A stretch of DNA of 39,998 nt from a virus: positions 1 to 39,998 of IMG/VR virus record IMGVR_UViG_3300001352_000026; one strand, written 5' to 3'. A program made the translations under genes and the position numbers. Of the stretch, positions 3,137-22,354 are shown piece by piece; the first letter of the stretch is position 1; each line of letters opens with the position of its first letter. The notes under the pieces are model-generated. The model worked only from the letters and a program-made list of their open reading frames with translations. It searched no databases and was not told where the DNA came from.

Positions 3137-3137
3137 A

Positions 3138-3395: not shown

Positions 3396-3415
3396 ATTTA
3401 CGGAGCGATAAGACG

Positions 3416-3438
3416 AAGGGGCTTTTGCCCCTTTTCTT
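3416..3438 (+). terminator. Rho-independent terminator ending the recombination unit
   Basis: A perfect 7-bp stem AAGGGGC (3416-3422) / GCCCCTT (3427-3433) with a TTTT loop runs into TTTTC. It lies 21 bp after the stop of the small SSB-like gene. Confidence 0.8.
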
Positions 3439-3449
3439 TGCTTCAAACT

Positions 3450-3468
3450 GTGACGAATGTCACTTTTT
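3450..3468 (+). terminator. Second hairpin with T5 (tandem terminator or operator)
   Basis: GTGAC-GAAT-GTCAC (3450-3463) is a perfect 5-bp palindrome followed by TTTTT. It may back up the terminator just before it. Because it is a short symmetric site at the edge of the AT-rich region, it could instead be a protein-binding operator. Confidence 0.45.
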
Positions 3469-3469
3469 A

Positions 3470-3622
3470 GGGGTTATACTGGACTCTATAATAAAAAAAT
3501 TAAATCAACTATTACTTATCTATATTTTTAACATTATTATTAACATTATCAACATTAAATAATATAAATAGTTAAATATCAGTAAAATAGATAAAGTTAA
3601 AACGACATAAAATCGACATAAA
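3470..3622. other. AT-rich intergenic region with short direct repeats, possible replication origin
   Basis: This is the longest gene-free stretch of the early arm that is not taken up by terminators. It is extremely AT-rich. It holds three copies of AACATTA (3530, 3542, 3551) and two of CGACATAAAA 11 bp apart (3603, 3614), the second running into the ATG of the primase-helicase at 3623. A TATATTTT box (3521-3528) is a weak -7 match. An AT-rich, iteron-like tract directly before a primase/helicase gene is where phage origins are often found. The promoter for that gene must also lie here. Confidence 0.35.
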
Positions 3623-6035: not shown

Positions 6036-7268
6036 ATGGAGTTTAGAGACTATCAAAAATCAATAATAAATAAGGCCAAACCTCTATTGCAAAAACATAA
6101 ATTTGTTTATCTTGCGATGGAGGTACGAACTGGTAAAACTCTCACGAGCTTGGGTGTAAGTGCGCTTTTGCCAGTATCGAACCTTTTGTTTATTACAAAG
6201 AAAAAAGCCATAAGCAGTATTGAAAGTGATTATAAACTTCTTAATCCATCATACAGCATTACAGTTATAAATTACGAGTCATTACATAAAATAGACCAAT
6301 TAGGTTGGGATATGGTAATATGTGATGAAGCTCATGGCATGGGAGCATTTCCAAAAAGAAACAAAAGGTCAAAACAAGTTCGTTCTTTGATCTTGGAAAA
6401 CGACCCTTTTGTAATATTCCTGTCAGGAACACCAACACCTGAATCATTCAGTCAAATGTACCATCAGGTTTCTGTAGTTCGTAGGCATCCATTTAGTGAC
6501 TATGTAAACTTTTATAAGTTTTCTAAACAATACGTAAACGTTAAGCAAAGAAAAATCAATTCTTTTATCATAAACGATTACTCTGATGGTCTACAAACTA
6601 TTATAGACGAAATGAAACCATATACAATTTCATATACTCAAAAAGAAGCTGGGTTCAAAGTTAATACCAAAGAACATGTATTAGAGGTAGAGATGAATTC
6701 AAGGACCTATGACCTTACAGCTAAACTAAAAAAGCATTTAGTTATTGAAGGTAATAATGATGTTATATTGGCTGACACACCAGTAAAGCTCATGATGAAA
6801 CTTCATCAAATGTATTCTGGTACTGTTAAATTTGAGTCTGGTAACTCTATGATATTAGATTTAAGTAAGGCACAGTTTATCCATGACAATTTTGCTGATG
6901 TACAAGTAGGAATATTCTATAAGTTTAAGGAAGAATTGAATGCACTAAAAGAAGTTTATGGCAAACAATTATGCACAGAGCTTGAAGAATTTAATAGTAC
7001 AGATAAAACTATAGCTTTGCAAATAGTAAGTGGAAGAGAAGGTATATCTTTAAGGAAAGCTGCATGCCTGGTGTATTACAATATTGATTTTAGCGCAACC
7101 AGTTACTGGCAGTCAAGAGATAGAATGACAACAAAAGACAGATTGGAAAGTGATGTATACTGGATTTTTTCAAGAGGTGGCATTGAGAAAGATATTTATA
7201 AAGCTGTAACGAAGAAAAAAGATTATACCTTAAGACATTTTAAAAGAGACTTATTAACTTCAAATTAA
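6036..7268 (+). CDS. SF2 (SNF2/DEAH-like) DNA helicase
   Basis: The start is taken at ATG 6036, one base after the primase-helicase stop; an upstream TTG would overlap it without benefit. The 410-aa protein has the SF2 series: FRDYQ (Q-like, residues 3-7), Walker A EVRTGKT (29-35), DEAH (97-100), SGTPTPES (130-137), then a C-terminal lobe with LQIVSGREGISL (about 327) and QSRDRMTTKDR (about 357-367), the motif V/VI region with Arg fingers. The compact two-lobe form is like phage SNF2-type helicases used in replication or strand remodelling. The DNA substrate is inferred from the family. Confidence 0.88.
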   Translation: MEFRDYQKSIINKAKPLLQKHKFVYLAMEVRTGKTLTSLGVSALLPVSNLLFITKKKAISSIESDYKLLNPSYSITVINYESLHKIDQLGWDMVICDEAHGMGAFPKRNKRSKQVRSLILENDPFVIFLSGTPTPESFSQMYHQVSVVRRHPFSDYVNFYKFSKQYVNVKQRKINSFIINDYSDGLQTIIDEMKPYTISYTQKEAGFKVNTKEHVLEVEMNSRTYDLTAKLKKHLVIEGNNDVILADTPVKLMMKLHQMYSGTVKFESGNSMILDLSKAQFIHDNFADVQVGIFYKFKEELNALKEVYGKQLCTELEEFNSTDKTIALQIVSGREGISLRKAACLVYYNIDFSATSYWQSRDRMTTKDRLESDVYWIFSRGGIEKDIYKAVTKKKDYTLRHFKRDLLTSN

Positions 7269-7273
7269 ATACA

Positions 7274-7747
7274 ATGAAAAAACACACGGCAATAGAACTA
7301 AGCCTTGCAGAAATTAACATCTGTAAATTTATAGGAGAACAACGATCACTTTTAGCAAGATCTAAAGGTGTAGTAGACGCGAAGATGGGGCAGCATGATG
7401 GAACAGTTGCAGATATCCAAGGATTTAAAGCAGAATATGCATTTGCTAAATTTAAAAATGTATTTCCAGACTTTGGATTAAGTGTCAGAAGTGGAAGCTG
7501 CGATGGTGTTACACATAAAGGTAATAGGTATGATGTAAAGTCTACAAACAGAATGGATGGTAATTTACTGTCCACATTAAAAGTAAATAATGATGTAGAT
7601 ATTTATGTACTTGCTGTAGTTCAATATAATATTGTGCATTTAATTGGATGGGCAAAAAAACAAGATTTAATAAAACCTGAAAACATTAAAGACCTTGGTC
7701 ATGGAAAAGGATATTTTTTAAGCAGAAATAAACTAAATAAATTTTAA
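7274..7747 (+). CDS. Putative PD-(D/E)XK nuclease
   Basis: The 157-aa protein contains GFKAEYAFAKF (E54), CDGVTHKGNRYDVKST (D77, then D87-V-K89) and a following beta strand DIYVLAVVQYN. The order helix-Glu, strand-Asp, strand-(D)xK is that of PD-(D/E)XK endonucleases, including restriction-enzyme-like and resolvase-like proteins. The last third (VHLIGWAKKQDLI) resembles the end of restriction-endonuclease-like folds. In a phage replication operon it could degrade host DNA or resolve recombination intermediates. It lies five bases after the helicase gene. The fold call is from motif reading only. Confidence 0.65.
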   Translation: MKKHTAIELSLAEINICKFIGEQRSLLARSKGVVDAKMGQHDGTVADIQGFKAEYAFAKFKNVFPDFGLSVRSGSCDGVTHKGNRYDVKSTNRMDGNLLSTLKVNNDVDIYVLAVVQYNIVHLIGWAKKQDLIKPENIKDLGHGKGYFLSRNKLNKF

Positions 7748-7762
7748 CTATACTTTTACTGT

Positions 7763-7951
7763 ATGAAGTTTATAAAATTTTTTTTAATTTGGTACAGTCA
7801 ACAAATGGCGATACCTTTTTGGATAATTGGACACGTACATTTACATTTTGCCACCTGGCATGACCTATATGAATACGCTTTGTCTATATTTTTACACGTT
7901 ATGGTTGCGGTTGGATTTTGGATTGATTGGAAACAAAACGGAAAAAAATGA
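7763..7951 (+). CDS. Small membrane protein (two TM segments)
   Basis: The 62-aa protein has two hydrophobic stretches, about residues 4-25 (FFLIWYSQQMAIPFWIIGHV) and 38-55 (YALSIFLHVMVAVGFWI), and a Lys-rich C-terminus (WKQNGKK). This predicts a helical hairpin with both ends inside. It overlaps the next gene in an ATGA. Two-TM phage peptides can be holins or superinfection-exclusion proteins. Its early position beside nucleases does not favour a holin, so the role is open. Confidence 0.6.
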   Translation: MKFIKFFLIWYSQQMAIPFWIIGHVHLHFATWHDLYEYALSIFLHVMVAVGFWIDWKQNGKK

Positions 7952-8187
7952 CAGAGCAACAGATACAGAACAAAAGAATTAAAGAGCTTGAAGCAGAGGG
8001 TTATTATGTTATAAAACTAAAACTTACAAATAAAAATGGTATACCTGATTTAATTGCTTTACCTCCAAATTGTGACGTGCTTTTTTCAGAAATAAAAAAA
8101 CCAAAAGGAGTTTTGTCAGAGCTACAAAAATATAGATTAAAAGAATTAGAAAAGCATGGGTTTAAAACCGAAGTATATAAAGGATAA
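7948..8187 (+). CDS. VRR-NUC domain nuclease
   Basis: The start is ATG 7948, overlapping the previous stop (ATGA); an upstream TTG is not needed. The 79-aa protein fits a minimal VRR-NUC domain (PF08774): helix NKRIKELEAEGYYVIKL, then NGIPDLIAL with the PD motif, FSEIKKPKG with the ExK motif, and a closing helix QKYRLKELEKHGFKTEVY. Stand-alone VRR-NUC proteins of this size occur widely in phages and can act as structure-specific (Holliday-junction-like) nucleases. A role in resolving replication intermediates is inferred. Confidence 0.82.
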   Translation: MTEQQIQNKRIKELEAEGYYVIKLKLTNKNGIPDLIALPPNCDVLFSEIKKPKGVLSELQKYRLKELEKHGFKTEVYKG

Positions 8188-8473
8188 AGGATATGAGGTT
8201 GAAGATAATTTTATTGATTCTTTATCTGAACTAAGCGATATAACTCTCAAAATACTTATATCTGATTATATAGACAATAACTTAAAAGAGTACCCTATAA
8301 ATGAGCTTACAACATACGTGGTTGGTGGGGTTGTAATACATAGAGATGAACCAGTATATTTTGCAATAGAAATTTTAAGGTCTGCTGGGGAGTTTCTTAC
8401 ACTAACGGATTTTCACATCATAGAATCTGATGAATACTTAGACTTAATAAATTTAAAATCATATATAAAATGA
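8156..8473 (+). CDS. Hypothetical acidic protein (105 aa)
   Basis: No family was recognised. The start at ATG 8156 makes a 32-bp overlap with the VRR-NUC gene, but no later in-frame ATG is suitable. The protein is acidic with helical segments (IDSLSELSDITLKILISDYI) and a short beta region (TTYVVGGVVIH). It ends in an ATGA overlap with the next gene, so it belongs to the same translationally coupled chain. Confidence 0.65.
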   Translation: MGLKPKYIKDKGYEVEDNFIDSLSELSDITLKILISDYIDNNLKEYPINELTTYVVGGVVIHRDEPVYFAIEILRSAGEFLTLTDFHIIESDEYLDLINLKSYIK

Positions 8474-8994
8474 AATTATCTCTTAAAGAAAAAACAATAG
8501 AGGCCATAATACTAAATGTGGAAGAAGTGCTGGGACTTGACCCAAGATTAAATACACGAAAACGTGAGTATGTATTTGCAAGAGCTGTTGTATACGATAT
8601 TTTACGAAAACATTTGCGAATGAGCTTAATGGATATTGCAAAAGTTTTCAACAAAAACCATGCAACTGTATTGCATAGTCTAAAACAGCTCCCTTACATA
8701 ATAAAATATGATCCTGACATACAATTTTCATACAATAATATTGTAAATAATTGGCTTGAAAATGTTGAAAACTTTGATTCAATACTTGAATCTGATTTAA
8801 AAAACAGAATAAAATTTCTCGTAAATCAAAATAAAAAGTTAAATTTGGAGTTAAGTGACTTGAGGAAGGAAGTAAGTCACTACACTGGCAAGTATAAAAA
8901 GTTCTATAAACTGGTCGCTGATATTGAACATAGAACAGGAAATAAATTTTCAGCTTTTGAACGAAAAATAAATACATATTTAAATGGATTATAG
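8470..8994 (+). CDS. DnaA domain-IV-like protein with coiled-coil tail
   Basis: The 174-aa protein begins with a DnaA C-terminal type helix-turn-helix: LGLDPRLNTRKREYVFAR (the basic SKxRxxxxVxAR segment), a helix AVVYDILRKHLRMS, and NKNHATVLHSLKQL, which matches the DnaA signature RDHTTVLHAxxKI well. After about residue 95 a Leu/Lys/Glu-rich stretch (IKFLVNQNKKLNLELSDLRK) predicts a coiled coil, so it may dimerise. There is no ATPase domain. It is the second protein of this kind in the early arm and keeps the signature loop better than the first. Likely roles are origin recognition or transcription control. It joins its neighbours by ATGA and an 11-bp overlap. Confidence 0.78.
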   Translation: MKLSLKEKTIEAIILNVEEVLGLDPRLNTRKREYVFARAVVYDILRKHLRMSLMDIAKVFNKNHATVLHSLKQLPYIIKYDPDIQFSYNNIVNNWLENVENFDSILESDLKNRIKFLVNQNKKLNLELSDLRKEVSHYTGKYKKFYKLVADIEHRTGNKFSAFERKINTYLNGL

Positions 8995-9214
8995 CGTAGA
9001 AGACATAGATAAAATTTTAAATTATAAAACCTGGTCTGACAAAAAGAAAATTGATACCCTTTTATTTATAGACTGCTGTCTTTACACAAACATGGGTAAA
9101 GAATCCACACAAACAGAACGACACGCAACTAAAGTCAAGTCAAGAAAACTTTATAAAGCCATTGGCAAAATAGATACAGCTGTAGGAAAACAAATACTTA
9201 ATTCCTTAGATTAA
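8984..9214 (+). CDS. Hypothetical protein (76 aa)
   Basis: A small, Lys-rich, mostly helical protein (MDYSVEDIDKILNYKTW, then KSRKLYKAIGKIDTAVGK). The start overlaps the DnaA-like gene by 11 bp and the stop shares its last base with the next ATG (TAATG), so it is part of a coupled gene chain. No family was recognised. Confidence 0.65.
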   Translation: MDYSVEDIDKILNYKTWSDKKKIDTLLFIDCCLYTNMGKESTQTERHATKVKSRKLYKAIGKIDTAVGKQILNSLD

Positions 9215-9408
9215 TGTCAAACCCTGTTTCTGCTGATGATATTCAAGCTATTACACATATCAACTATGTGACTAACAACTTGCATTCATTGACTGATAAT
9301 ATTTACGAAGACTTAATGGACAGGGATCACGAGGCAGCTAAAAAAAAAGCTAAAAATATTATACAGACTATGAGTGAGCTAATAAAATCTTTGTCAGATG
9401 AAATCTAA
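9214..9408 (+). CDS. Hypothetical helical protein (64 aa)
   Basis: The frame MSNPVSADDIQAITHINYV to MSELIKSLSDEI is helical with regular hydrophobic spacing. TAATG links it to the gene before, and its 3' end overlaps a 38-aa frame at 9398. No family was recognised. Confidence 0.6.
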   Translation: MSNPVSADDIQAITHINYVTNNLHSLTDNIYEDLMDRDHEAAKKKAKNIIQTMSELIKSLSDEI

Positions 9409-9514
9409 AACAGACACAAAACTTTCTGTTATAAAAGAAATATTAAGACTCAAAAAATTACCTCAGTCTTCTAAAATTTTATTAAAGATACAGAAACTAC
9501 AACAAAAGCTATGA
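9398..9514 (+). CDS. Very small basic protein (38 aa)
   Basis: A 38-aa frame (MKSKTDTKLSVIKEI to KLQQKL) with Lys/Leu spacing of an amphipathic helix. It fills the gap between the 64-aa gene (11-bp overlap) and the 106-aa gene (ATGA overlap). The exact fit with both neighbours is the main evidence that it is translated. Function unknown. Confidence 0.5.
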   Translation: MKSKTDTKLSVIKEILRLKKLPQSSKILLKIQKLQQKL

Positions 9515-9831
9515 ATAAAGGAATAGCTACAGAATTACAGGATTTCTGTGAAACTATCGCACAAAGATACTCTGATACTAAAAGAGTAGGAAATATAGGT
9601 AACGAATCTTTTTCGGTAGAAGAAATTATACCAACATCAGACCATAGTGCATGTGTTAATTTTTCTAAATCAGGAGGTAAAACTGCTGTTGCTTTCTTTT
9701 ACTATATTAATAGAGGGAGGTCTAAAGGCTGGAAATATTTTTTTCCAACAGACTCTCACGTAAATGGATTCCAAGCGTTTTTATATTATAAACTTGAAGC
9801 GGAACGCAGAAATTTCTCTAAGAATTTTTAG
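9511..9831 (+). CDS. Hypothetical protein, last gene of the early arm (106 aa)
   Basis: Not recognised by name. N-terminal helix (ELQDFCETIAQRY), a central beta section (EEIIPTSDHSACVNFSKSGG), an aromatic segment FFYYINRGRSKGWKYFFPT, and a basic C-terminal helix. It starts in an ATGA overlap and its 3' end overlaps the convergent late-arm gene by 14 bp. No terminator is visible between the arms. Confidence 0.65.
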   Translation: MNKGIATELQDFCETIAQRYSDTKRVGNIGNESFSVEEIIPTSDHSACVNFSKSGGKTAVAFFYYINRGRSKGWKYFFPTDSHVNGFQAFLYYKLEAERRNFSKNF

Positions 9832-10057
9832 CTTTACACTTGGCCCAATGTATTTCAGCACACTTCTCATAGTCTTCCCTGGACTCAAAATAATACCTAA
9901 CTAAATCGTATACATCATCATCCATTACAATCACAGCTCGTGTAGGGTCGAACACTAATTCAACTTCATCAAACTCTTCCAGCAACGTGCTAAAAGAGTC
10001 TTTGCCAGTCAAAATTCTATAACTTTGCAGCATACAAAGGTGTTCGTTAAATGCCAT
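9818..10057 (-). CDS. Acidic hypothetical protein, last gene of the late arm
   Basis: A 79-aa acidic protein (SFSTLLEEFDEVELVFDPTR, then VMDDDVYDLVRYYFESREDYEKC) with four Cys residues. It starts 5 bp after the stop of the giant late gene and so should be made from the late transcript. Its 3' end overlaps the last early gene tail to tail. No family was recognised. Confidence 0.6.
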   Translation of the reverse strand: MAFNEHLCMLQSYRILTGKDSFSTLLEEFDEVELVFDPTRAVIVMDDDVYDLVRYYFESREDYEKCAEIHWAKCKAKNS

Positions 10058-10062
10058 ACATT

Positions 10063-13000
10063 TTAATTATACATTTCATCAAGCATTTGTTCTCTTCGCT
10101 CTTTCTGTTGTCTTTTAATTTCTTGTTTTTGACGATACATATCAGAGTTTTTATATTCTTCTTGTAACCTCATTTTCTCTTCATATTGCTCTGGGAAATA
10201 TCTTTCTAATTCTTTGTTAGTTAGCTTTTTACCCTTTGGTTTTCGTGTAGTTTTCTTAGCATCTGCTCGTTCTTCTTTAGAAAGAATTTGATAATCAGAA
10301 AACTGCAAAGCTCTCATTATTAATTCTGTACCAGAAGCTTTTCCGCTTAATATTTCATCTGCATTTTTAACTAAACGATCTAACTGTATTAATGGTAATC
10401 CAGCGTTAGACACATTCCAAAAAGCTTTTTTTATAGCAGCTTCTTTGCCTGCTTTACTTTTTTGAATAGCTTCAGCTGTTCTTTGTTTTCCGTTTTTATC
10501 AAATGGAGTTACATTAAATCTATTAGCTTCGTTTAGTTCTCTAAAAAACTTTAATCCTATTGTTAGTATAGGAACAGCTGATTCATCTTGTCCTGTCCAT
10601 GGTTTAGCAGTTAAGTAATCTCCAAACGCTTCAACAAAACTACCTATAATAAATAACCCATTTAAATTTCCTAAAGCCGCAGCTCTTAGTAATGTTTCTT
10701 CATCTTCCTCTTCCCAAGGAGCTAAAACACCAGGGAGACCAGCTGAAATAAATTGGAATACAACTGGTAAAATAGAATGATACATGGCTAAAGTTTTAAA
10801 ATTTTCCCAATAAGTACCTTTTCCTTCTTTACCGCCACTCTTTATTTTTCTATAAAGATTTCGTGTTGTTGTCATTTCCTTTCTCAAGTATTGTTTTACT
10901 GAAGTCAAAAACATATTTAAACTTCTATTAAAAGCCCCACCTGTTTGGAATTGATCTTTATCTTGTATATCACTTGATTGCTGAGATGTTTTTGTGTCTC
11001 TCTCAAACATTTTTATTGCATAATCAATTACTTCTTGATTAGTTGCTGTAGGATTTTTCTTTCTATACTGGTCTTTGTAAAAAGCATAGTTAGGAACACC
11101 GCCAATAACAATTGCACCTTTATCACCTTGTTTAACTAAATACATTAATACATTAACAATGTCACCCATAGTTTCTGATGGAACTAATGTTTGAACTTTA
11201 CCTGGCGCATAACTTTCTATTGTTCTTAAGATTGATTCACCATATCTATCTTGTATATAAATAGAGTTATCGGTAATTTCTTTCCAGTTAGATTTCATCT
11301 CAGGCAACTTCATAGTTCCATATTTCATCCAATTTCTAAATCCAATACGCACAGCGTAAGCTGGCGCTGAAGTTAACTGTTTAATAAATATTGTTGGATT
11401 AATAGATAATCTACCTATAACAAACGCTGAAGTCACATTATTTATCCAGTCCATTCCATATTCTGATCTAACACCTTTTTTAGATAAAGTATCAATCATT
11501 GTATCAATACTCTTCATAGGACCAATACCATATTGGTTTGTTATAGCTTTTCGTATATCTTGATTAGAAAAAATATTATTTACGTCATTTAAATTTTCAC
11601 CAAAAGCAGCAAAATAATTCATGTCATTAACATAAGTCATTAAAGCGGCCATTTGGTCCATACTTTTTATAGCTTTTTTGTTTTTTAATCTAACTTTTGT
11701 TGAAGCAGGTGAAGCCATACCTTTGTAAGCTCCTTTTTCATTTGATAAAACATCACCACCAACTTCAGAGTCTGTACCTTCTCTATATATACGACCTGCA
11801 TAATGTTCATTCCATGGCATAGTTGTTCTGTATACTTTTTTATACACTTCATTATATCCTTCATATAGTGATGGAAAAAATTCTTCAACTTGCCATTTCA
11901 TTATTTCTTTAACCTCATCGTTTAGTAAGGCTTCCATTTCTTCCATTACTCTCTTATAATCCTTGCCATATTTAGTTTCATACGAAGCCTCATTTGCAGG
12001 GTCTCTGTATTGATTTACTAAATATGCCATTTGATTTTGACTAAGCTCTTCTATTTCTACACCACTTGACATAAGAATACCTGTGGGAGCAGGAATGCTA
12101 TCTTTTTGAGATTTTGATCTCCATTTTTTTGTGCCATAAATCTCTTCAAGTTTTGCATTTATAAGCATAGTCGTAGTCATTTTTCGAGCTTTATAGTCAT
12201 TGGTCGATTCGTCTATTTTAAATGTAACCATCTCTTGGAGTTCACCACCAAATAATTCACCAGGCATTTTACCTATTTTAGACATTAGATTTAATAAATC
12301 ATTATTACCTATAACAAAAGCAACCATTCCCTCTGTCAATTGAGAAAACTTAACCTTAGCTCTATTTATTACTCCCTTTTTTCGTGCAGTAGATATTGCT
12401 TCATAATCTCTAATTATTTGTTCACTATCTGGATTTTTTATTTCTTTTGGATTTGATTTAGACTCTACTTGTAATTCATTGTATTCAGGATTAGGAATAT
12501 ATAAACTTACTTTAGTTCCTGTAATTTCATAAAATGCTTTTTCAAAATTAGAAACATAATGTAAATGTTTAGCTCGTAAAGAAGCTTCCATTTCAGTTTT
12601 ACCTTGATCAACTAAACTGTTTAAATCGTTTATTACATCTTGTAAATCTTGAGTTTTGTCAACTGTAACCTCTGGACTTAATTGTGCATTAAAATAATTT
12701 AAAACCACTCTCAAATCAGCGACATCAGTTCTTTGCTTTTCATTTTGAAATGTTTCAGATTCTATTTTAGATATTCTATTTTCTAATTGTTGAACCATAT
12801 CTTCAACTTCAGTTACATCTGTTTTACTGTTAACATTTCCTATTTCTTTTTTTATGTTTTCTAATCGTACACGTATTTCGTCTGAAACTTTATAACCTTT
12901 TTTTCTACCTGACTGTGTGTCTTGATATTTTCCTTCTAATATTTCGTTAATTTTTTTAGTTAATTCTTTGTTTGTTCTGGTGTTTACAAATTCTAAAACT

Positions 13001-16000
13001 TCTTCTTTTAAATTTTCTATATTTTTTGTATTGGCGTTAGTTACCTTATTAATTAATTTAGTAACCTCTGGTTTCACAAACACAAAACTTGGCAGAGATT
13101 GTCTTATAAAGTTTCTAAGATCTCGTTGTGTAGTTTTTAAATCAGCAGTAGATCTTCCTTTTATCAACTTACGTGCTGCTTTAATCCTTGCATAAGCATC
13201 TCCTTTAGTTATTCCTTTCTCAAATGCGTTCATCATTTGTGAGGTCATTTGAGCTTGCATAGTGCTATATGCACCGTTGTTTGACTCAGCTCTATATTCA
13301 GGTTGACTCTGTAAAAAATCTAATGTTTTGTTATCAATTTCTTGTTGAGTAAATTTGTAAAACTTTTTATTTGTGTTTTTGGCTTTTTGTTGAATAACAG
13401 CTATTTCTTGCTGTAATTTTTTTATTTTATTTTCAATTTTTTCTGATTTTTTTGCATCAAATAAATCTCCTTGAGAAAGATTAGCTTTCTGCTCATCAAT
13501 TTTTTCATTGAGTTTTGATATTTTTTTACCAGTTGGAGTTAAGTTATTGTCTAATAAATTTTTTCTGAATTCATATATTTTATTAAACACTTTGACACCA
13601 GCTGTCATTCCTCCTGATATGTTTCCAAAAACAGTGGGTACGTTTTTAAGAACAAAATTACTTACCTTCATTAAAGGTTTTATGTCTCTCATCAGAAGAC
13701 CTGTTTTTCTTTTTAGATAATCAACAATAGTATTGTCTTTAATATTATTTTCTCTACCTATTTTTATAATATCAATTGGACTTTTATTTTCTCTTCCTAT
13801 TTCACCCATTGATTGTTGTTTTCTAACACCAGCTCTTGGGTTAAAAAATCTTGGTTTACCATTTTGAGTAACACCATCAGAAAAATAATATCCAGCAACT
13901 TGACCTTTTTTATACCCTTCTTTATATATAGCTCTTTCTACTCTTAAACCTAATCTTCTTGCTGATCTTTGTAGTTCACCAAGAGGTATAGTGTTTGGCA
14001 TAAACCCTTTAAGATTCATTTTAAAAAGCAAACCTAACTTTTCTGCATCCGACTTTTGTTTTCTTACACTTGGAGCCTCTACTTTACTTTCTGATTCAAT
14101 AGAAACTTCTGTTTCAGGAGATATTACTTCACCAGCAACCACACTTACGTTTCTTACAGCGTAAGGTTTTCCAGACTTCTGTACTAAAACTTCTCCTCCT
14201 GGTTGTCTGTTTTTAAATAAATGTAGTACAGGCTTTGACCCATCTTTTAATGAAATATGAAATGGATAGCTTGGATGAGAATCTTCATTAACTTCAACCT
14301 CACTATTTATTTCTATTGCAGCGTATACATCGCCTACATTTAAACCTTTAGTTAGTTTTTCAGCAGCAACTTTAGCAATTAAATCTACAAGAGATTGTGA
14401 ACCTGGCCCTTTGACTCCTTTTTTAGTGTTACCTACACCAACATTTTTATTTACATCACCACCTAAAAATTCAGCTATAGCAGCTTGACTTTCTTTTGGT
14501 AAATTTTTAGCTATTTCTCCAACAATATCTTTCACTACAAAACCTCTTTTTTCAAAAGTACTTGTGTTAGGGTTTGTAAAATATTTTTTAATATCTGTTT
14601 TTAAATCTTTAGCACTTTGTCTTAAATTAATTTTTCCTTGAGCTTTTTTAACAGCTATAGATACTGCTGATCTAAACATTGAAGGACTAATTAAATTATT
14701 ATCTAACATGGTGTTTAGTATTGCTAATGTTGAATTAACACCTGAAGCACTACTTACTAATTTAGCATCTGTTCCTTTAGTTAAAACTAAATATGCCTTG
14801 CCTCCATTGTTTTCTAACTGTTTATTTAAACTATTCTTTATAGTATTTGCAGTTCCTACTTTTCCAGAAGCCCACACATCTCCAAACTTAGTAACAAAAA
14901 ATACTCCTCCTTCTCCTTCAAATATAACTTTATTATTATATTTAATTTCCCCAGCTAACATATCATCAGGAGCTGTAATGGTAACCTCTTGACCTTGCAT
15001 AAAAGATATATCTTGAGGCTGAGTAATTAATCCAGCTTTCATCATATCTGCAATACTCTCTTGTTGAGTATAAGTAACTTCAAAACCACCTACTGATTTT
15101 CTTGCTAAAGCATCAGCTGGATTTTCAACTTTTTTACCTCCTTTAAAATCATCTATTACTTTAAGATCTCCTTCAGTAATTTGTTCTCCAGTTTTAGTTT
15201 TTCGAGCAATAGTATTTAGCAACTCTACAACATCTGCTTCCGACTGACCTATTTCAATACCAAGTCCAGCGGCAATCTTTTCAACCCATTTTCTCACAAC
15301 TGATTTAGAACTAACATCTAATGACGTATAGTTGTCAGCAATCATTCCTACAATTTCAGATAAATTTTCTTCGTTTTGTATTTCAGAATCGTAGTTTTTA
15401 ATGAATTTTTTTAGTTCAGTCCTTGTGGCTTTATCTAAAGTTTTAGAACGTGATAATGCTTGAACCATTTTTTTTGTAACAACTTGTGCTACCTTATCAT
15501 TCATTTTTAACTTATTCAATAATACAGCATGGAATATTTCATGAGCAACAGTCCTACCGTTAGCTTTGGATAAATTAATATGAATTGTATTATCCTTTGG
15601 CTGGTACATTCCATTATCATTATCAGCATCTATTTTACGATACTGTTCGTTGTCTCTATGTACTACAATTTTTAAGTTAGGAAATATTTTTGATATTGCT
15701 TTTGCAGCATTTTTTGCTTGTTTTAAAACTTGATTAGAAAACTTATTCTCTTGCTCTGTTTTTCCTTTTTTAGTAAAAGACAGGTTTGGACCTTCTTCAT
15801 TTACTTGAATATCAACATCAACACCTTTGTCATTAGATACTGTTTGTTTTCTACCTGGAAGGTTATCTATATCTGATTCAACTTTAGACTCTGGATCAAC
15901 TAAAGCTTCAAAATCAGAGGCCTCATTAGGATCTATTTCCTCCTCGGTCTTCTCCCTGTTTTGAGTTTCGGTTTCGGTTTGGCTCTGTTGGGTAGGCTGG

Positions 16001-18807
16001 CTGTCGGGTACTCTTTGTCCCACCTCTTCGCTACTTCTGGAAGATTCTTGTGCATCCAGGCTCTCTGTGCTTTGCTTTTGTAAGGCATCTTGTTCGGTTT
16101 TAATTTGTTCTGGTGTAGGGTTTTCTATTCCCTGTTCTTTCAACGAAACAGCAGCATCTTCCTCTGTAATTATTTTCTCTTCATCTTCAACTCTACCTAA
16201 GTTTGGACTTTCAGTAGCTGCCAACGCATCTCTTCCTATATTCTCAAGAGTTGTATTGATATCGTCTATTTTGTCCTGAATTGATTTAACAGACGATGGG
16301 TCTTTACCAGCAATACTTTGCTCTAATTTTTGTTTATTTAATAAAAGACCTAAAGCTATTTTCTTTTGATCTGTTGTATAGTCACTTGGTATTTGATTAT
16401 AAACTCCTTTTAGTTCGTTAAATATATCTTGCTGTTCTTTAGCTTGTTTAACTGTTAGTTCTCCGCTATTTATTTTGTTTTTTAACTGAACATCTATTAG
16501 CTTAGTAGAAGTGCCGTCTCCAACCATATCTTCAAAAACCTCAAAGACACCATTATCTAATCTCGTAAAGTCTTTTGAAGCTGCTGCGTTTGACATGGCT
16601 CCTGGGACACTCATTATCCATCCACCAACCATTTCTTGTGCGCCAGCTTTTAATACTTGATTAAAGCCTTCTCTAAATGATTCAGGAGTTTGAAACATAT
16701 TAGCGTCTTTAATATTATTATATATAGCTTTAGCAGATATGTCTGCTATTTCTTGTGCTGCACCTGTTTCAAATTCAGCTACACCACCAGCTGCAATAGT
16801 AAGAACACCACGTGATATCATGTTGTCAACCTCTTGTCTTACAACGTCTTGAAAACCTCTTCCTTGTACTTGCCTTAAACCTTTGTATTTACCTAAAGCC
16901 TTTAAAAGAACTTTATTCATTAAACCTTTTTGTTTAACAACATTTCTCAATCCTACTGATTCGAGAACTGCAACTACTGTCCCTAATGGTAATGCAATAG
17001 CTAATTTTTCTTTTTCTGAAATATTTTCAAAATCAGGATCATTAAACATTTCTTCATTTAAATGATCACTGACCTGCATAAACATAGCAGTTGTTCTTTG
17101 CGCCCATCCAGCTGGACCTGCAGCTCCTGCCATTGCTGGCAAAGATTCCATTAAACCTAAATATGCGCCACCCCAAAATCCTTCTTTCATTAAATCGCTA
17201 TATTCAGTTGTAGTGGAAGCTGAACCTAAAACCTCTTCTGGAGCTGTTCTTAAAGTTTTTACTATAGACCCTGAACTTACATCACTAATATTAGTTGCCA
17301 TTGCAGTATCAGAATAACGACCTCCACCTGCAAGTTCTTTAATTTTAGCACCTCCATCTTCTTGCCATTCATATATGTCAAATTTAGCTTGTTTTGCAAG
17401 TATATCTCTGGTTTTAGTATCTACTTCTTTTTGTTGCTCTTCAGTTAAAGACATTTTATATCCATCAAATTCATCTCCTTCAATTCTATCTAACTGTTTT
17501 CTTATACCAAACATTTTTAATGCAGTGTCTTGATAAAGTCTATTGAATGCTTTTTCACCAGCACCTCCATATTCTCCACCAAATGCGGCTGCATCAACAA
17601 TGTAACTATAAGCACCAGATAATTGTCGACCAACACCATTCCAAATATTATCTAAAGTTGCACCAGAAAGCTGACCTCTTTTAGCCTGCATTTCTGTATA
17701 CCTACCCATTGTTTGGTCTAAAGTATAGCCTTGAGTTTTTAAGTCATTATCACGAGCTATTATCCTTGCTCTTTCTTTGTTGTTTTGAGATCTTGCTGCT
17801 ATATAATTATTGTACAGTTCTCGTGTACCTGGTTGGTTTAATTGTTCTTGAGTTAAGTTATTAAATTGAGCGCCTTCTACATCTAAAGAATTTTTTGCTT
17901 GTAGCCACGACTGGACTTGTTTGTTAAATAAATTTGCTTGTGTATTTAATACAGAAACTGAAGCATCAATATCTTCTCTGTCAAATATTTTTCTTTCTAA
18001 ATCACTATATCCGTTCTCTAATAAACTTAATCTTCTGCTGTCTGCTTTATTTTTTTCTAAAAAAGCCTGTAAAGCCGTTCCTTCTTCTGCATCATTTGAA
18101 CTAAAAAAATTATCTAAATCAACGTATAGACTTTCACCATTTGCTGACGTAACATTCATTCCATCACCCATCATATCAGTAGGTTCAAAATTAAAACCAT
18201 ACTGATTAAAATGATAATTTAATAAAGGCACTGCTTGTTCTTCAGATCCGCTAATCAAATCTTGATTAACAGCTCGCATTGAGTTTGTAAAAGGATCTTC
18301 AGTTTGTTGATTTATTTTATTATTAGCATCGACAAATTCATTAAATTTATCTTCAGAAACTTCTTGATTATTAATTGAAGATTCTGTTGTTATTTGGTTT
18401 GCAATAGTTGCTTGTGCTAAAGCAGACTCTTCTGGAGCTAAAGGTTCATCAACCTCTGGCTGATTAGTACCATTTTGAGGATTCTCGTTGTTTAATGGAT
18501 TTGTGTTGGTATTTAATTGTGAAGAATCCGAATCGCCATCGTTCTGTTCTGATTCCATAGCTTCCTCCACCCCAGCAGAAAGCTGGTCTTGTAAATCGAC
18601 TTTTTTTTTTACTTTAACTTTTTCAGACCAAACATCTAAAGGTTCTCTTTCAGTAAAAGTTTTATCTACACCAGTTAACCACGAATACATTTCTAACGCA
18701 AAATCATCCTCTTGCATGTTATTTTGAAAATCATCAAAAGTATATCTTCCAGAATAAGCATAATTTGTATCAAGCCAGCTATATAATTCTACTAAATATT
18801 CATTCAT
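10063..18807 (-). CDS. Giant virion polyprotein (2914 aa), putative gp16-like ejection protein with zincin motif
   Basis: One uninterrupted 8.7-kb frame, no frameshift. Visible parts: N-terminus with LYSWLDTNYAYSGRYTFDDF; Ala/Gly-rich hydrophobic stretches about residues 540-570 and 670-760; a Glu/Gln-rich low-complexity linker about 860-980; a metalloprotease-like segment with HEIFH (H1089, E1090, H1093) and a candidate third ligand E1151 in ENLSEIV; coiled coils about 1760-1815 and 1940-2150; a helical C-terminal region about 2170-2740 resembling the polyvalent-protein-associated regions of giant phage proteins, with IGRLSINPTIFIKQ and SQQSSDIQD; hydrophobic segments about 2680-2732; a highly charged tail. 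It follows gp14-like and gp15-like genes, the place of T7 gp16, so I infer it is packaged and ejected into the host. No transglycosylase or RNA polymerase motif was seen. Confidence 0.85.
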   Translation of the reverse strand: MNEYLVELYSWLDTNYAYSGRYTFDDFQNNMQEDDFALEMYSWLTGVDKTFTEREPLDVWSEKVKVKKKVDLQDQLSAGVEEAMESEQNDGDSDSSQLNTNTNPLNNENPQNGTNQPEVDEPLAPEESALAQATIANQITTESSINNQEVSEDKFNEFVDANNKINQQTEDPFTNSMRAVNQDLISGSEEQAVPLLNYHFNQYGFNFEPTDMMGDGMNVTSANGESLYVDLDNFFSSNDAEEGTALQAFLEKNKADSRRLSLLENGYSDLERKIFDREDIDASVSVLNTQANLFNKQVQSWLQAKNSLDVEGAQFNNLTQEQLNQPGTRELYNNYIAARSQNNKERARIIARDNDLKTQGYTLDQTMGRYTEMQAKRGQLSGATLDNIWNGVGRQLSGAYSYIVDAAAFGGEYGGAGEKAFNRLYQDTALKMFGIRKQLDRIEGDEFDGYKMSLTEEQQKEVDTKTRDILAKQAKFDIYEWQEDGGAKIKELAGGGRYSDTAMATNISDVSSGSIVKTLRTAPEEVLGSASTTTEYSDLMKEGFWGGAYLGLMESLPAMAGAAGPAGWAQRTTAMFMQVSDHLNEEMFNDPDFENISEKEKLAIALPLGTVVAVLESVGLRNVVKQKGLMNKVLLKALGKYKGLRQVQGRGFQDVVRQEVDNMISRGVLTIAAGGVAEFETGAAQEIADISAKAIYNNIKDANMFQTPESFREGFNQVLKAGAQEMVGGWIMSVPGAMSNAAASKDFTRLDNGVFEVFEDMVGDGTSTKLIDVQLKNKINSGELTVKQAKEQQDIFNELKGVYNQIPSDYTTDQKKIALGLLLNKQKLEQSIAGKDPSSVKSIQDKIDDINTTLENIGRDALAATESPNLGRVEDEEKIITEEDAAVSLKEQGIENPTPEQIKTEQDALQKQSTESLDAQESSRSSEEVGQRVPDSQPTQQSQTETETQNREKTEEEIDPNEASDFEALVDPESKVESDIDNLPGRKQTVSNDKGVDVDIQVNEEGPNLSFTKKGKTEQENKFSNQVLKQAKNAAKAISKIFPNLKIVVHRDNEQYRKIDADNDNGMYQPKDNTIHINLSKANGRTVAHEIFHAVLLNKLKMNDKVAQVVTKKMVQALSRSKTLDKATRTELKKFIKNYDSEIQNEENLSEIVGMIADNYTSLDVSSKSVVRKWVEKIAAGLGIEIGQSEADVVELLNTIARKTKTGEQITEGDLKVIDDFKGGKKVENPADALARKSVGGFEVTYTQQESIADMMKAGLITQPQDISFMQGQEVTITAPDDMLAGEIKYNNKVIFEGEGGVFFVTKFGDVWASGKVGTANTIKNSLNKQLENNGGKAYLVLTKGTDAKLVSSASGVNSTLAILNTMLDNNLISPSMFRSAVSIAVKKAQGKINLRQSAKDLKTDIKKYFTNPNTSTFEKRGFVVKDIVGEIAKNLPKESQAAIAEFLGGDVNKNVGVGNTKKGVKGPGSQSLVDLIAKVAAEKLTKGLNVGDVYAAIEINSEVEVNEDSHPSYPFHISLKDGSKPVLHLFKNRQPGGEVLVQKSGKPYAVRNVSVVAGEVISPETEVSIESESKVEAPSVRKQKSDAEKLGLLFKMNLKGFMPNTIPLGELQRSARRLGLRVERAIYKEGYKKGQVAGYYFSDGVTQNGKPRFFNPRAGVRKQQSMGEIGRENKSPIDIIKIGRENNIKDNTIVDYLKRKTGLLMRDIKPLMKVSNFVLKNVPTVFGNISGGMTAGVKVFNKIYEFRKNLLDNNLTPTGKKISKLNEKIDEQKANLSQGDLFDAKKSEKIENKIKKLQQEIAVIQQKAKNTNKKFYKFTQQEIDNKTLDFLQSQPEYRAESNNGAYSTMQAQMTSQMMNAFEKGITKGDAYARIKAARKLIKGRSTADLKTTQRDLRNFIRQSLPSFVFVKPEVTKLINKVTNANTKNIENLKEEVLEFVNTRTNKELTKKINEILEGKYQDTQSGRKKGYKVSDEIRVRLENIKKEIGNVNSKTDVTEVEDMVQQLENRISKIESETFQNEKQRTDVADLRVVLNYFNAQLSPEVTVDKTQDLQDVINDLNSLVDQGKTEMEASLRAKHLHYVSNFEKAFYEITGTKVSLYIPNPEYNELQVESKSNPKEIKNPDSEQIIRDYEAISTARKKGVINRAKVKFSQLTEGMVAFVIGNNDLLNLMSKIGKMPGELFGGELQEMVTFKIDESTNDYKARKMTTTMLINAKLEEIYGTKKWRSKSQKDSIPAPTGILMSSGVEIEELSQNQMAYLVNQYRDPANEASYETKYGKDYKRVMEEMEALLNDEVKEIMKWQVEEFFPSLYEGYNEVYKKVYRTTMPWNEHYAGRIYREGTDSEVGGDVLSNEKGAYKGMASPASTKVRLKNKKAIKSMDQMAALMTYVNDMNYFAAFGENLNDVNNIFSNQDIRKAITNQYGIGPMKSIDTMIDTLSKKGVRSEYGMDWINNVTSAFVIGRLSINPTIFIKQLTSAPAYAVRIGFRNWMKYGTMKLPEMKSNWKEITDNSIYIQDRYGESILRTIESYAPGKVQTLVPSETMGDIVNVLMYLVKQGDKGAIVIGGVPNYAFYKDQYRKKNPTATNQEVIDYAIKMFERDTKTSQQSSDIQDKDQFQTGGAFNRSLNMFLTSVKQYLRKEMTTTRNLYRKIKSGGKEGKGTYWENFKTLAMYHSILPVVFQFISAGLPGVLAPWEEEDEETLLRAAALGNLNGLFIIGSFVEAFGDYLTAKPWTGQDESAVPILTIGLKFFRELNEANRFNVTPFDKNGKQRTAEAIQKSKAGKEAAIKKAFWNVSNAGLPLIQLDRLVKNADEILSGKASGTELIMRALQFSDYQILSKEERADAKKTTRKPKGKKLTNKELERYFPEQYEEKMRLQEEYKNSDMYRQKQEIKRQQKERREQMLDEMYN
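15529..15543 (-). other. Codons of HEIFH zinc-protease motif inside the giant protein
   Basis: The five codons encode H-E-I-F-H at residues 1089-1093, preceded by a strand (NTIHINLSKA) and ARG/VAHE-type helix start. This is the usual strand-helix arrangement of zincins. A Glu suitable as third ligand stands 58-62 residues later (E1147/E1151). Confidence 0.7.
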
Positions 18808-18808
18808 C

Positions 18809-21076
18809 TTATCCTATTTTTTTAAATTGTACATCTACCTTTCCATAATCTACATGAAGATAATCTCCTACTGGTACAGCTGCCCATGGTACTTCTTGCG
18901 CCATAACACCTGTGAAAACACCTTTTTCATAAACTCCTTCTTTATAAGTCCAGCTGTAAATATTTATTCCACTGTTAGATTTTCCTATTAAATTAATATT
19001 TTCTTTTAATCTAATATCTGATGGCGGTAAACCTCCAGTATTGGTTGAGCCTGCATTTTTAGTATTATATGCGTTTATAATTTTATTTATTTCTGCATCT
19101 ACTTCACTTTGTAGTAAGGTGTTATCAGCATCATACCTGAAAGTTTTACTTACGTTTTGATTTGTAGATGGATCCTTGTATTGTACTATAATATCATTTG
19201 TTGCTCCAGACGTATCGTTTGTAGATACTGTAACTCCTAATGAAGAACCAAAGTTTCTTTCCAGTTTTTCCAGTCCTTTTGTAAATGCTTTTTTAACAAC
19301 TGGAGCTGCCTTTAAGAAATTATCAGTTTCATCTGGTATAGCTGCAAATTCAGAATTCATTGTAGTTGTCATAGTTGAATCAACAAAAGCATTATCTGAG
19401 TTATAAGTATTTATAGGCTGGAAGTTTCTTGTTGTTCCAAATTCTTCATCACCTTTCCATAAAGGATTTGCTGCTCCATTTATAAATCTTGGTGTCCATT
19501 TATTATTAGGATCAGACTGAACTAACTCATCAAACGACATGTTTCTAACAACCTCTCTTGGAAGTATTTCTCTATATAATTTTTTTGCAATAATCTCAGT
19601 CTCTAAAGGTTTAGTTGTATCTATCTGACCATTGGTTTTACCATACTTATCTATAGTTTCTGTTACAGTTCGACCACTAATTTCTTTAGTAATAATAATT
19701 GTTGGTCCAGTTCTATCAATAGAAATAATTTTAGTATTTCTGTCAGTAGCATTGTTAGAATTTAAAAACTGCTGATTCATGTCTGTTATTCTATCTTCAG
19801 CAACCATAGTTGCGTCTTGACCAGTCACAGTAATAATGTCATTTATATCATTAAAATACCCTTTTCTTTGTCTCTTTAAATTATTGTTTCCAATAGTTGT
19901 GCCTGTCGCTTGTTGTTCTTGTTGACCAGAAAAACCTTGAGACATTTTTTCTATATGATTAACCTGCGACTCAACAGCTATATCAGCAAGCCTACGAGCT
20001 TGTGTTATTTGAGCAGCAGTCATTTCAGGAACTGGTTGTCCTGAACTCATATCTACTTTAATCATTTTATCAAGACTTACTTTTGGATATTTTTCTTTAA
20101 ATTGACTTTCTGTTTCTGCAAAGAAAAAATTACCTGAGTTAGTTAAAACTTGAGCAGCATTCATGTTGTCCGATTCTCCAGGCGCTCCAACCATAGCATC
20201 TATTTGTGCTACTTTCCACATATCATAAGTTAATGGGTCTCCGTTTAAGTCCTTACCAAAATCTCCTAAATTCCTAAAATCTTCCACAGAAGTAACTTGA
20301 CCTCCTCCATTTAATACAGAATATTTATTAGCTTTATCAACAGCAGATTTTATAATATCTGCTATCTGAGCAGTTTGAGCAGTTGCCAAATTATCAACAT
20401 CAACTCTATCTTGCTCAAACTTCATAAAGTTCATTATCTGATTAGGATTCTGATAGTCTTGTTTTCTTTTTTCGTAATCAGGCATTACATCATACAAGCC
20501 AGTTTTTGAATTCTTACCCATTGTTACTAACTGCATTTTACCATTAGTAGGGTTAGACCATAGTTTTTTATTTCTTAAATTACCTAAAGCTTCAACAGAT
20601 AAATTTGAAAATATTTCCAGCTCAGAAGCTGTTGCACCTCCATCTTTTGCAGCTTGTAATCTTTCTTTTGCTTTAACAGCCCAGTCATCCCATCCTTTTA
20701 CAGCTGTACTTAAACTTGAATAGCCATTTTTTTGTTGCTGCATATACAGCTTATAATCTGAAGGACTAATTAAACCACGCTTTAATAAATTGTTTTGTTC
20801 TTGTATACCTTTTACAGACATACTTGAACCGTTTATCAGTAAAGATGCAGCATCTTGAGTTCCAGTCTCTGGAACCTTGCTTAACTGTTCTATGGCGTTT
20901 TGAGTAGATTCTTCAATCGCAGCTTTACGAGCAGCTCTATCTGCCTGTATGGTTTGCAGTCCAGTCACTAATTCTTTGGACGCTGCGTTCCAGTCCATTT
21001 GAGTGCTATCTACACTTCTTTGAGCATATATAGAATATTTATTTGCCCCTGAAGGTCTTGATGTATCTTCCGCCAT
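18809..21076 (-). CDS. Putative internal virion protein (gp15-like) with C-terminal S74 chaperone domain
   Basis: The 755-aa length is close to T7 gp15 (747), and it lies between gp14-like and giant gp16-like genes. Residues 1-680 are mostly helical, Gln/Asn/Lys-rich, with many short repeated helices and no named domain. The last 70 residues are clearly a Peptidase_S74/intramolecular chaperone (ICA) type domain: SDIRLKENI (S686, D687, R689, K691), then GINIYSWTYKE, then GVFTGVMAQEV and a closing HVDYGKVDV. In tail spikes this domain trimerises the protein and cuts itself off just before the Ser-Asp. Its presence on a core-protein-like chain is odd, so the alternative is that this is a tail fibre/spike component. 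The stop is one base before the ATG of the giant gene. Confidence 0.8.
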   Translation of the reverse strand: MAEDTSRPSGANKYSIYAQRSVDSTQMDWNAASKELVTGLQTIQADRAARKAAIEESTQNAIEQLSKVPETGTQDAASLLINGSSMSVKGIQEQNNLLKRGLISPSDYKLYMQQQKNGYSSLSTAVKGWDDWAVKAKERLQAAKDGGATASELEIFSNLSVEALGNLRNKKLWSNPTNGKMQLVTMGKNSKTGLYDVMPDYEKRKQDYQNPNQIMNFMKFEQDRVDVDNLATAQTAQIADIIKSAVDKANKYSVLNGGGQVTSVEDFRNLGDFGKDLNGDPLTYDMWKVAQIDAMVGAPGESDNMNAAQVLTNSGNFFFAETESQFKEKYPKVSLDKMIKVDMSSGQPVPEMTAAQITQARRLADIAVESQVNHIEKMSQGFSGQQEQQATGTTIGNNNLKRQRKGYFNDINDIITVTGQDATMVAEDRITDMNQQFLNSNNATDRNTKIISIDRTGPTIIITKEISGRTVTETIDKYGKTNGQIDTTKPLETEIIAKKLYREILPREVVRNMSFDELVQSDPNNKWTPRFINGAANPLWKGDEEFGTTRNFQPINTYNSDNAFVDSTMTTTMNSEFAAIPDETDNFLKAAPVVKKAFTKGLEKLERNFGSSLGVTVSTNDTSGATNDIIVQYKDPSTNQNVSKTFRYDADNTLLQSEVDAEINKIINAYNTKNAGSTNTGGLPPSDIRLKENINLIGKSNSGINIYSWTYKEGVYEKGVFTGVMAQEVPWAAVPVGDYLHVDYGKVDVQFKKIG

Positions 21077-21081
21077 ATCTT

Positions 21082-21945
21082 TTATCTGTTTAAAATGTCA
21101 TAAAAAGCTTGATCATATATGCCAGTTTTTCTATACCCTTTTAATTGCTCAGGCGAAAACCTTCCATCTTGTAATCTTGCTATAACTTGATTTCTTCCTA
21201 AAGGTTGAGTTACAGTTGGAGCAAATAACGCCGCTTTGTTCATGTCGTAATTTGCGCTTTTTGGATCTGAAAGATCTGCATAAGTTTTCATCCCCTCAGC
21301 TGTTGTACCTGGTTGGTTTACAGATGTTGTTTTTAATAAAGATTGATCTAAACCATCTGCCATTTTAGAAGCTCGTCTGTCTGCTGCACCTTGAGGAAAT
21401 AATGAAACCATACCTGCAGCACCTTGCACTGCTTGCCCAACTGACGCAACGCCTTGCTGCATTGCTGCTGCTGAAGCTTCTTCAGAATCTCTTGATATTT
21501 GTTGTTGATCTGCTGCTGCCCCAACTTTAAAATCTTTTAAGTCTTGATTAATATCAGACTGTTCTTGAACTTGCATTTTTTGTAAATCAAATAATTCTTT
21601 ACCAAACGCAATACGTGAGTTTTCAGCTGACTCAGTAGCACCTGCTCCAACAATACCAACTCCTGCTGCTAAGTTACGAGAATCACCTTCCTGAAGTGCT
21701 TGTATGTTTTGTTGTTGACCTTGTATAATTTGACGCTCTTCTCTTCCATAAGCATCTAAAGGTACATTTAACTTTTGCATGAACTCAACTTCGGCCTTAC
21801 GCTCTGCCTCTTTCATTAATTCTTTACTTGCTTTCTGTGCTTTTTCACCTTGCTTTCTTGCTTTTGCTGCTTGAGAAAAACTCATACCAGCAGAAGTGGC
21901 ACTAATTAAAACCCCTGTTGCTGCTATTGCTGTTGCTGCTGCCAT
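21082..21945 (-). CDS. Putative internal virion protein (gp14-like)
   Basis: The 287-aa protein starts with an Ala/Gly/Ser hydrophobic segment (about residues 2-22, AAATAIAATGVLISATSAGM) followed by a long Ala/Gln/Glu/Lys helix (SQAAKARKQGEKAQKASKEL and on). Another Ala/Gly-rich stretch lies near 165-185, with a small folded C-terminus. This is the pattern of podovirus gp14-type internal core proteins, which leave the virion first and form an outer-membrane pore. There is no sequence signature beyond composition and order, but gene order (gp14-like, gp15-like, gp16-like) and sizes support it. Five bp separate it from the next gene. Confidence 0.65.
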   Translation of the reverse strand: MAAATAIAATGVLISATSAGMSFSQAAKARKQGEKAQKASKELMKEAERKAEVEFMQKLNVPLDAYGREERQIIQGQQQNIQALQEGDSRNLAAGVGIVGAGATESAENSRIAFGKELFDLQKMQVQEQSDINQDLKDFKVGAAADQQQISRDSEEASAAAMQQGVASVGQAVQGAAGMVSLFPQGAADRRASKMADGLDQSLLKTTSVNQPGTTAEGMKTYADLSDPKSANYDMNKAALFAPTVTQPLGRNQVIARLQDGRFSPEQLKGYRKTGIYDQAFYDILNR

Positions 21946-21946
21946 A

Positions 21947-22354
21947 CTATATTTTTTTTATTATTTCATGAGACACTTTTGTATCTACGTTATACCCTAA
22001 TTTTTTGTGAGTATCTATTAAATGTTTATTTCTACCAATACTGAATATATATTTTTTGCCATTAGCCTTTATGTATTCTTCACATGTTAAAATTAAAAAC
22101 TCAATAGCATCCTGCCTGTCGTCATCTCTATAAGAAGGATTAGAAACAATCCACTCTAATAAAACTCCCTTAGAGTTTGTAAAATACATAAATCCCGCAA
22201 CAATAGGAGTGCCATCTTTCTCTACCATCAAACCGCCTGTGCCATTATCTGGTAAAAAATCTTTTGGAGGATTTTGCCAATCTGGCCACTCATCCCACCA
22301 AGACACTAATGTGTCCCAATCCTTTTCTTCAAGCTTTCGTATATTAAATTCCAT
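21947..22354 (-). CDS. GNAT-fold acetyltransferase-like protein
   Basis: The 135-aa product has the elements of a small GNAT domain: beta1 FNIRKLEEKDWDTL, strands GGLMVEKDGTPIVAGFMYFT and GVLLEWIVSNPSYRDDDRQD (the V-x-P region and acetyl-CoA-loop position, though the classic R/Q-x-x-G-x-G/A loop is not intact), helix AIEFLILTCEEYI and the closing THKKLGYNVDTKV. Similar genes occur within tail gene clusters of marine T7-like podoviruses, where their target is unknown. A promoter-like box lies 17 bp upstream of the ATG, so it heads the ejection-protein transcript. Whether it is catalytic is uncertain because of the altered loop. Confidence 0.72.
   Translation of the reverse strand: MEFNIRKLEEKDWDTLVSWWDEWPDWQNPPKDFLPDNGTGGLMVEKDGTPIVAGFMYFTNSKGVLLEWIVSNPSYRDDDRQDAIEFLILTCEEYIKANGKKYIFSIGRNKHLIDTHKKLGYNVDTKVSHEIIKKI

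Follow-up and report, generated by a model that had tools for sequence, protein, structure and literature searches.

Does a lone HEXXH motif in the giant protein of a phage mark a working zinc protease and, if so, what would it cut? The window examined here is an entire virus record of 39,998 bp (classed with IMG/VR), in which a first-pass annotation had placed a gluzincin-like segment within a 2914-aa ORF. The segment was proposed to cut the polyprotein itself for maturation or to act on host proteins after ejection. In outline this idea is already in print, as both self-cleavage and cleavage of host proteins were proposed in 2017 for the zincin-like MPTases in the available text of PMC5512222.

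The genes for the terminase, portal and virion structural proteins lie on the minus strand and are followed by two more ORFs, then by ORFs of 135, 287 and 755 aa, with the giant last (Table 1). A comparable order was observed in relatives (i.e. smaller ORFs, one of ~450-840 aa and then the giant), and in most of them the next genes lie on the other strand. The gp50 (vRNAP) of phage N4 is likewise a giant virion protein whose gene ends its late operon, adjoining two smaller virion genes for 66-kDa and 16.5-kDa proteins. There is also a likeness to gp14/15/16 of T7. The product of 10063-18807 is probably an internal virion protein that is ejected; its gene context was seen directly and ejection is what we infer from it. 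The only PHROGs match in the giant was phrog_1009 (aa 1727-1815), whose function is unassigned there, and the 287-aa neighbour had no match in Pfam or PHROGs. Two further observations concern the smaller ORFs. The 755-aa protein contains a Peptidase_S74 (endosialidase chaperone) domain at aa 686-730 (26.6 bits against a cut-off of 22), overlapped by phrog_6121; as such domains usually terminate tail fibres, its place in a presumed partner ejection protein is odd. The 135-aa ORF (21947-22354, minus strand) matches phrog_17252, also of unassigned function there, and resembles a GNAT acetyltransferase by eye, with no Pfam match.

Table 1. Features of the 39,998-bp window discussed in the text
Feature	Position	Strand	Basis
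Terminase large subunit	37254-39503	-	PHROGs name
Portal	34822-37257	-	PHROGs name
Virion structural proteins	32141-33601, 30208-31185, 29284-30207, 24495-29282	-	PHROGs names
287-aa neighbour, presumed co-ejected protein	21082..21945	-	Position only
755-aa neighbour, presumed co-ejected protein, C-terminal Peptidase_S74	18809..21076	-	ORF list, Pfam
Giant ORF, 2914 aa, presumed internal/ejected virion protein	10063..18807	-	ORF call, late-gene position, relatives' gene order
Acidic, Gln/Ser-rich linker-like stretch, ~aa 861-1019, upstream of the domain	15751..16227	-	Composition
Predicted zincin (MPTase) domain, ~aa 1020-1215	15163..15750	-	Alignments, AF2 model, hhalign to N4 vRNAP zincin
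H1050, end of first strand	15658..15660	-	76/78; strand 27-31 of AF2 model
HEIFH, aa 1089-1093: two putative zinc His and putative catalytic Glu E1090	15529..15543	-	Conservation
E1147, best candidate third zinc ligand	15367..15369	-	78/78; sister family; N4 type by motif
E1151, probable second-shell residue	15355..15357	-	78/78; Val in L118; non-Glu in sister family
C-terminal block, ~aa 1680-2880, common to giants of the motif-free test	10168..13770	-	Sequence comparison

The elements named in the first-pass annotation were all located in the translation: HEIFH at aa 1089-1093 (window 15543-15529, minus strand), the strand NTIHINLSKA before it at aa 1073-1082, and NEENLSEIV after it at aa 1145-1153, containing E1146, E1147 and E1151. 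HEIFH is the only HEXXH in the giant, as compared to 0.005 expected from the composition of the ORF. A whole-protein search with six peptides, none touching the HEXXH, returned six IMG/VR relatives, all of which contained HEIFH. Conservation was then scored over a larger set, composed of the best 80 of 240 relatives from a profile search of IMG/VR, seven further loci, Flavobacterium phage elemo (L001) and the window; the 88 relative rows gave 77 distinct domains, or 78 with the window. Seven residues (H1089, E1090, F1092, H1093, E1146, E1147 and E1151) were identical in 78/78 distinct domains, and H1050 and H1076 were each present in 76. Loss of the His or Glu residues among relatives, looked for as a sign against the protease, was not observed in this set. 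As the search patterns covered both the HEXXH and the Glu helix, the 78 domains were split by the pattern matched (both, 28; HEXXH only, 21; Glu helix only, 29). The HEXXH was invariant in the 29 domains found by the Glu pattern and the Glu site was invariant in the 21 found by the HEXXH pattern; as each of these groups was recruited by a single pattern, the search could not have enriched for its other site.

Domain dN/dS values of 0.18 (L004), 0.15 (L003), 0.14 (L002) and 0.35 (L016) indicate purifying selection on the domain. In the comparison with L004, the linker and domain had dS values of 0.64 and 0.78, as compared to 0.42-0.47 in neighbouring parts of the giant, while for L002 and L003 the domain dS was below that of most of the remaining giant. 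These differences suggest that linker and domain (window 15163-16227) may have recombined between phages as a module. The giant of elemo, annotated as a 'structural protein' (MT497072), is longer (3694 aa versus 2914 aa) and has 31% identity to the window giant over aa 994-1541, rising to 46% in the domain, where HEIFH and NEEKLSE are kept; outside aa 994-1541 blastp matched only a weak stretch at window aa 554-981.

A search independent of the motif was performed with the C-terminus of the giant alone (aa 2300-2700), and the best 80 of the 163 relatives found were taken. The zincin domain was present in 62 of these 80, whilst nine lacked it and stop upstream inside the locus (one, L117, being a 981-aa fragment that starts near the locus end) and nine were cut at the 5' side. 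Wherever the stretch was present in these relatives, the HEXXH and EE pair was kept, including in L128 and L184 with altered spacing. Counting was restricted to ORFs of at least 2000 aa, which number 68 (62 distinct). The 12 shorter loci of the 80 that were left out are mostly cut by contig ends; among them, the domain of L169 is encoded in a different frame, and only a second-type HEXXH is in view in L132. An HEXXH was found in 65/68 ORFs (59 of the window family and six of a sister family), against a composition-based expectation of 0.0015-0.0053 per ORF in the eight checked. Giants sharing this C-terminus therefore almost always have a zincin, of variable family and place. The three without HEXXH (L181, L182 and L188) have the C-terminal block in common with the others but are shorter (2090-2164 aa), with no Pfam match in L181 and L188; they are natural comparators lacking a zincin, which is thus not strictly essential. 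Two other counts were set aside: an earlier 66/66 for the domain holds by construction and is not evidence, and blastp coverage underestimates the C-terminus, a segment of L015 missed by blastp having been found by tblastn.

The sister HEXXH has the form NT-x-(I/V)-HE-(M/Y/F)-GH-(I/V)-W in L123, L130, L134, L137 and L142, giants without the window-family domain, and in the 5'-open L125. It lies shortly before the C-terminal block. In L123, the common N-terminal block ends where the window domain starts (window 1034 = L123 980) and the sister domain is at 1744. The two families gave an hhalign match of 93.6% over 169 columns with a score of 53.5, as compared to scores of at most 21.0 in 100 column shuffles, and are homologous on this profile comparison; the sister family may have come about by exchange or by divergence with relocation. 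A sub-threshold GNAT acetyltransferase match was noted at aa 1051-1143 of L123, immediately beyond the expected site of the zincin, and another at aa 971-1060 of L028.

The window profile was also compared with 12 N4-type vRNAP zincins (i.e. N4 and 11 of 219 matching records). hhalign gave 92.5%, an E-value of 4.8e-7 (from a pairwise comparison, and so not a database-search E-value) and a score of 54.6; 100 column shuffles scored no higher than 24.3, and a control with the unrelated C-terminal block scored 17.1. The sister family had no direct match to the N4-type zincins (probability 7.2 and 1.9), so that its link to N4 runs through the window family only. When the N4 domain was used to scan IMG/VR, no record other than N4 itself was returned. 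The zincin subdomain C1 of N4 gp50 (residues 2124-2375; PDB 9pnt) has an HEXXH, a later Glu and a strand-helix order as in the window. The two differ in the distance from HEXXH to Glu (64-86 residues in N4 type, 48-63 in the window family) and in the Glu motif (NE[FYL]MA versus EExLAE). N4 vRNAP also has a polymerase and probably a different C-terminus; no polymerase was matched in the window giant by Pfam, PHROGs or NCBIfam profiles, and the C-terminal block compared with N4 2376-3500 (a single N4 sequence) gave a probability of 0.2.

The first-pass annotation had offered E1147 or E1151 as the third zinc ligand, and the three families separate these candidates. The EE of the sister family aligns to that of the window family and reads EEALA, EEAMV, EEAMA or NEALA. 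The NE[FYL]MA motif is present in 12/12 N4-type sequences, in which the Glu was matched by motif, the hhalign alignment covering only the strands and HEXXH helix. In L142 and in N4, Asn stands in place of E1146. Val replaces E1151 in L118, and neither the sister nor the N4 family has Glu there, which argues against E1151, whilst E1147 is kept in all three families and, as the sole Glu common to them, is the better third ligand. The best reading is of a putative zinc site formed by H1089, H1093 and E1147 with E1090 as the base, these roles being taken from the fold family. In the structural model described below, E1147 lies within a helix of aa 1146-1162.

An AF2 model of the domain was generated from 76 of the 78 distinct domains, leaving out the near-duplicates L012 and L014, and had a pLDDT of 81.3 and a pTM of 0.72; a first model from six sequences was poor (pLDDT 57) and was kept out of fold searches. 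DSSP assigned a helix at 3-19, strands at 27-31, 47-50 and 55-59, the HEXXH helix at 67-80, further helices and the Glu helix at 127-143 (add 1019 for giant numbering). This is the order of a zincin-like MPTase (i.e. N-terminal helix, three strands, HEXXH helix and Glu helix), with extra helices between. Among the 50 matches listed by VIA-align were N4 vRNAP (9pnt residues 2157-2366; Z 6.1, 164 aligned), lethal factor (Z 6.3-6.9 for its residues 51-257 and 5.0-5.3 for catalytic 591-775), and the PPEP-1/3, collagenase H (ColH) and SprT zincins; these Z-scores, all below 8, are middling, and unrelated helical proteins were listed at equal Z. The M34-type zincins (lethal factor catalytic domain, PPEP-1/3) may share the overall fold, with ~120-137 residues aligned, but at a Z of only ~5, with 11-18% identity and without significance in Foldseek against the PDB; they are secreted bacterial proteins, unlike a part of a phage virion. 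Foldseek found nothing significant in the PDB (best E 0.25) and eight matches at E <0.001 among viral models, one of them an elemo structural protein. Sequence searches of the PDB gave no zincin below E 0.7, the best being IrrE (E 0.7-0.97). Structure comparison by VIA-align and Foldseek thus gave no clear single-family assignment. The zincin/gluzincin assignment made at first pass is supported by conservation, fold order and the profile match to a recognised phage zincin, the last being stronger evidence than the structure comparison, and there is little doubt that aa ~1020-1215 form an intact zincin domain.

No Pfam or meaningful NCBIfam match to the domain was obtained above cut-off, and sub-threshold Pfam names (DUF5700, DUF6361, DUF445) were not relied on. 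According to the available text of Iyer 2017 (PMC5512222), no domain is commoner in the polyvalent proteins of phages and plasmids than the zincin-like MPTases, which are also present in N4 vRNAP. The window domain shares with them the fold, HEXXH and Glu, a mid-protein position and a large phage protein as host. It differs from the widespread phage clade described there in having no Asp three residues after the HEXXH and in its conserved His, which ends the first strand rather than the second. Of the MPTases of polyvalent ejected proteins, for which 12 clades have been published, the domain represents a branch that is uncatalogued as judged by Pfam and NCBIfam. It is regarded as a new branch of a known kind because the 2017 class and N4 are known and because relatives carry polyvalent companions (LPD23 in L021, L061 and L091; RadC in L028); no other recognised polyvalent domain was found in the window giant with Pfam, PHROGs or NCBIfam.

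Polyvalent proteins sometimes have more than one MPTase in the same account, and here a second HEXXH, HE(I/V/L)QH, was observed in 6/66 complete giants (L021, L061, L064, L065, L082 and L091) and also in L131 and L132. It adjoins LPD23 in L021, L061 and L091, and the second zincin of L091 matched DUF6782 (39.0 bits against a cut-off of 27) and Peptidase_M78 (25.9 against 22). In annotated phages, the window domain matched only 68 elemo records, as did the domain of L026; the whole protein also matched two Tenacibaculum records, and the L028 domain search (E limit 1) also listed three Klebsiella records. Plasmid searches at E limits of 10 and 1 gave no relatives of the domain, and none of 65 stretches matching a pattern in genome_contigs was confirmed as a relative.

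What such a domain would do was weighed from these data. A chance HEXXH in a helical protein might be suspected since Pfam and NCBIfam name nothing and no PDB match is significant, but an expectation of 0.005, conservation in 78/78 domains and the profile match to a known zincin reduce its probability to a negligible level. The zincin fold might instead have been retained for a structural or packaging role, or the domain might be some other HExxH metalloenzyme that does not cleave proteins; this would accord with N4, in which the region containing the MPTase is needed for encapsidation according to the available text of PMC5512222. In the sections available of the N4 structure paper (PMC12633501), the HExxH subdomain is noted and the motif is said to occur in radical-SAM/alphaKG enzymes as well, with no report of protease activity. 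Retention of E1090 in 78/78 domains, and of the equivalent Glu in 5/5 sister and 12/12 N4-type sequences, goes beyond the need of a scaffold, however, and makes a non-proteolytic role quite improbable. A maturation role, as first suggested, would have the giant or another virion protein cut ahead of assembly or in its course. Its precedent is DdrB of P1, which has a C-terminal MPTase and is reported in the available text of PMC5512222 to be processed before packaging. This precedent is unsure because, in the portion of P1 proteomics available (PMC9024508), virion DdrB is listed at 108.7 kDa (59.5% coverage, 39 peptides) and the protein said to be processed is DarA; N4 vRNAP, moreover, is packaged uncut according to the available text of PMC5512222, and a maturation protease is accordingly an improbable reading.

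An active protease acting after packaging is the reading that we consider probable, with the giant itself or co-ejected partners as the likeliest substrate. That the zincin persists although the blocks around it vary speaks for a necessary catalytic step that acts on something shared by these proteins. The acidic stretch just before the domain was counted for self-processing; in 66 giants, E/Q/S/T/N/D/P make up 0.53-0.56 of residues at -160 to -80 from the HEXXH, as compared to 0.41 overall. The giant would be packaged first, and the protease would become active during or after passage into the cell. H1089, H1093 and E1147 would bind zinc and E1090 would activate water, as in the fold family, and the giant or its co-ejected partners would be cut, so that modules may be released inside the cell. 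Self or partner processing after packaging is in itself a serious possibility, held with some reserve. Alternatively, the active protease could have a host substrate after ejection, as an early effector (e.g. against a defence or cell-envelope protein). Such roles are among those proposed for the MPTase class in the available text of PMC5512222. In the comparisons with L004, L002 and L003, linker and domain have a dS unlike that of other parts of the giant, which would fit exchange between phages; giants with the same C-terminus may have the distinct sister zincin; and a second zincin accompanied by LPD23 is present in some relatives. An accessory effector would, however, be expected to be lost more often than a zincin kept in 65/68 giants with an invariant active site, and a host target is considered possible but unlikely.

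The presence of zincin domains in the giant proteins that phages eject was predicted in 2017 (PMC5512222), and one was seen in the N4 structure (PMC12633501), as far as the available text of both goes, and the literature searched gave no assigned activity or target for them. Open literature on zincins in podophage or ejection proteins did not contain a near-universal zincin in giants chosen by their C-terminus, and no paper describing the giant protein of the elemo phages was found there. The present analysis adds an uncatalogued branch with invariant active-site residues and a reasoned third ligand, E1147, together with evidence, obtained without recourse to the motif, that a zincin persists in relatives despite changes of family and position. 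Tentatively, these giants may represent a flavophage-like podophage lineage whose ejection protein nearly always has a protease, drawn from two diverged zincin families, the sister lying elsewhere in the protein after loss of the first. If true, post-ejection proteolysis would be a general and selected step of genome delivery in phages with giant ejection proteins, overlooked in N4.

One related locus, L027, has a giant (7013-14451) in a broken frame and was left out of the evidence. A natural split into ORFs of 1654 and 838 codons was rejected, because the two frames overlap and no plausible start is present where they join; for the same reasons, the break is probably an assembly or sequencing frameshift.
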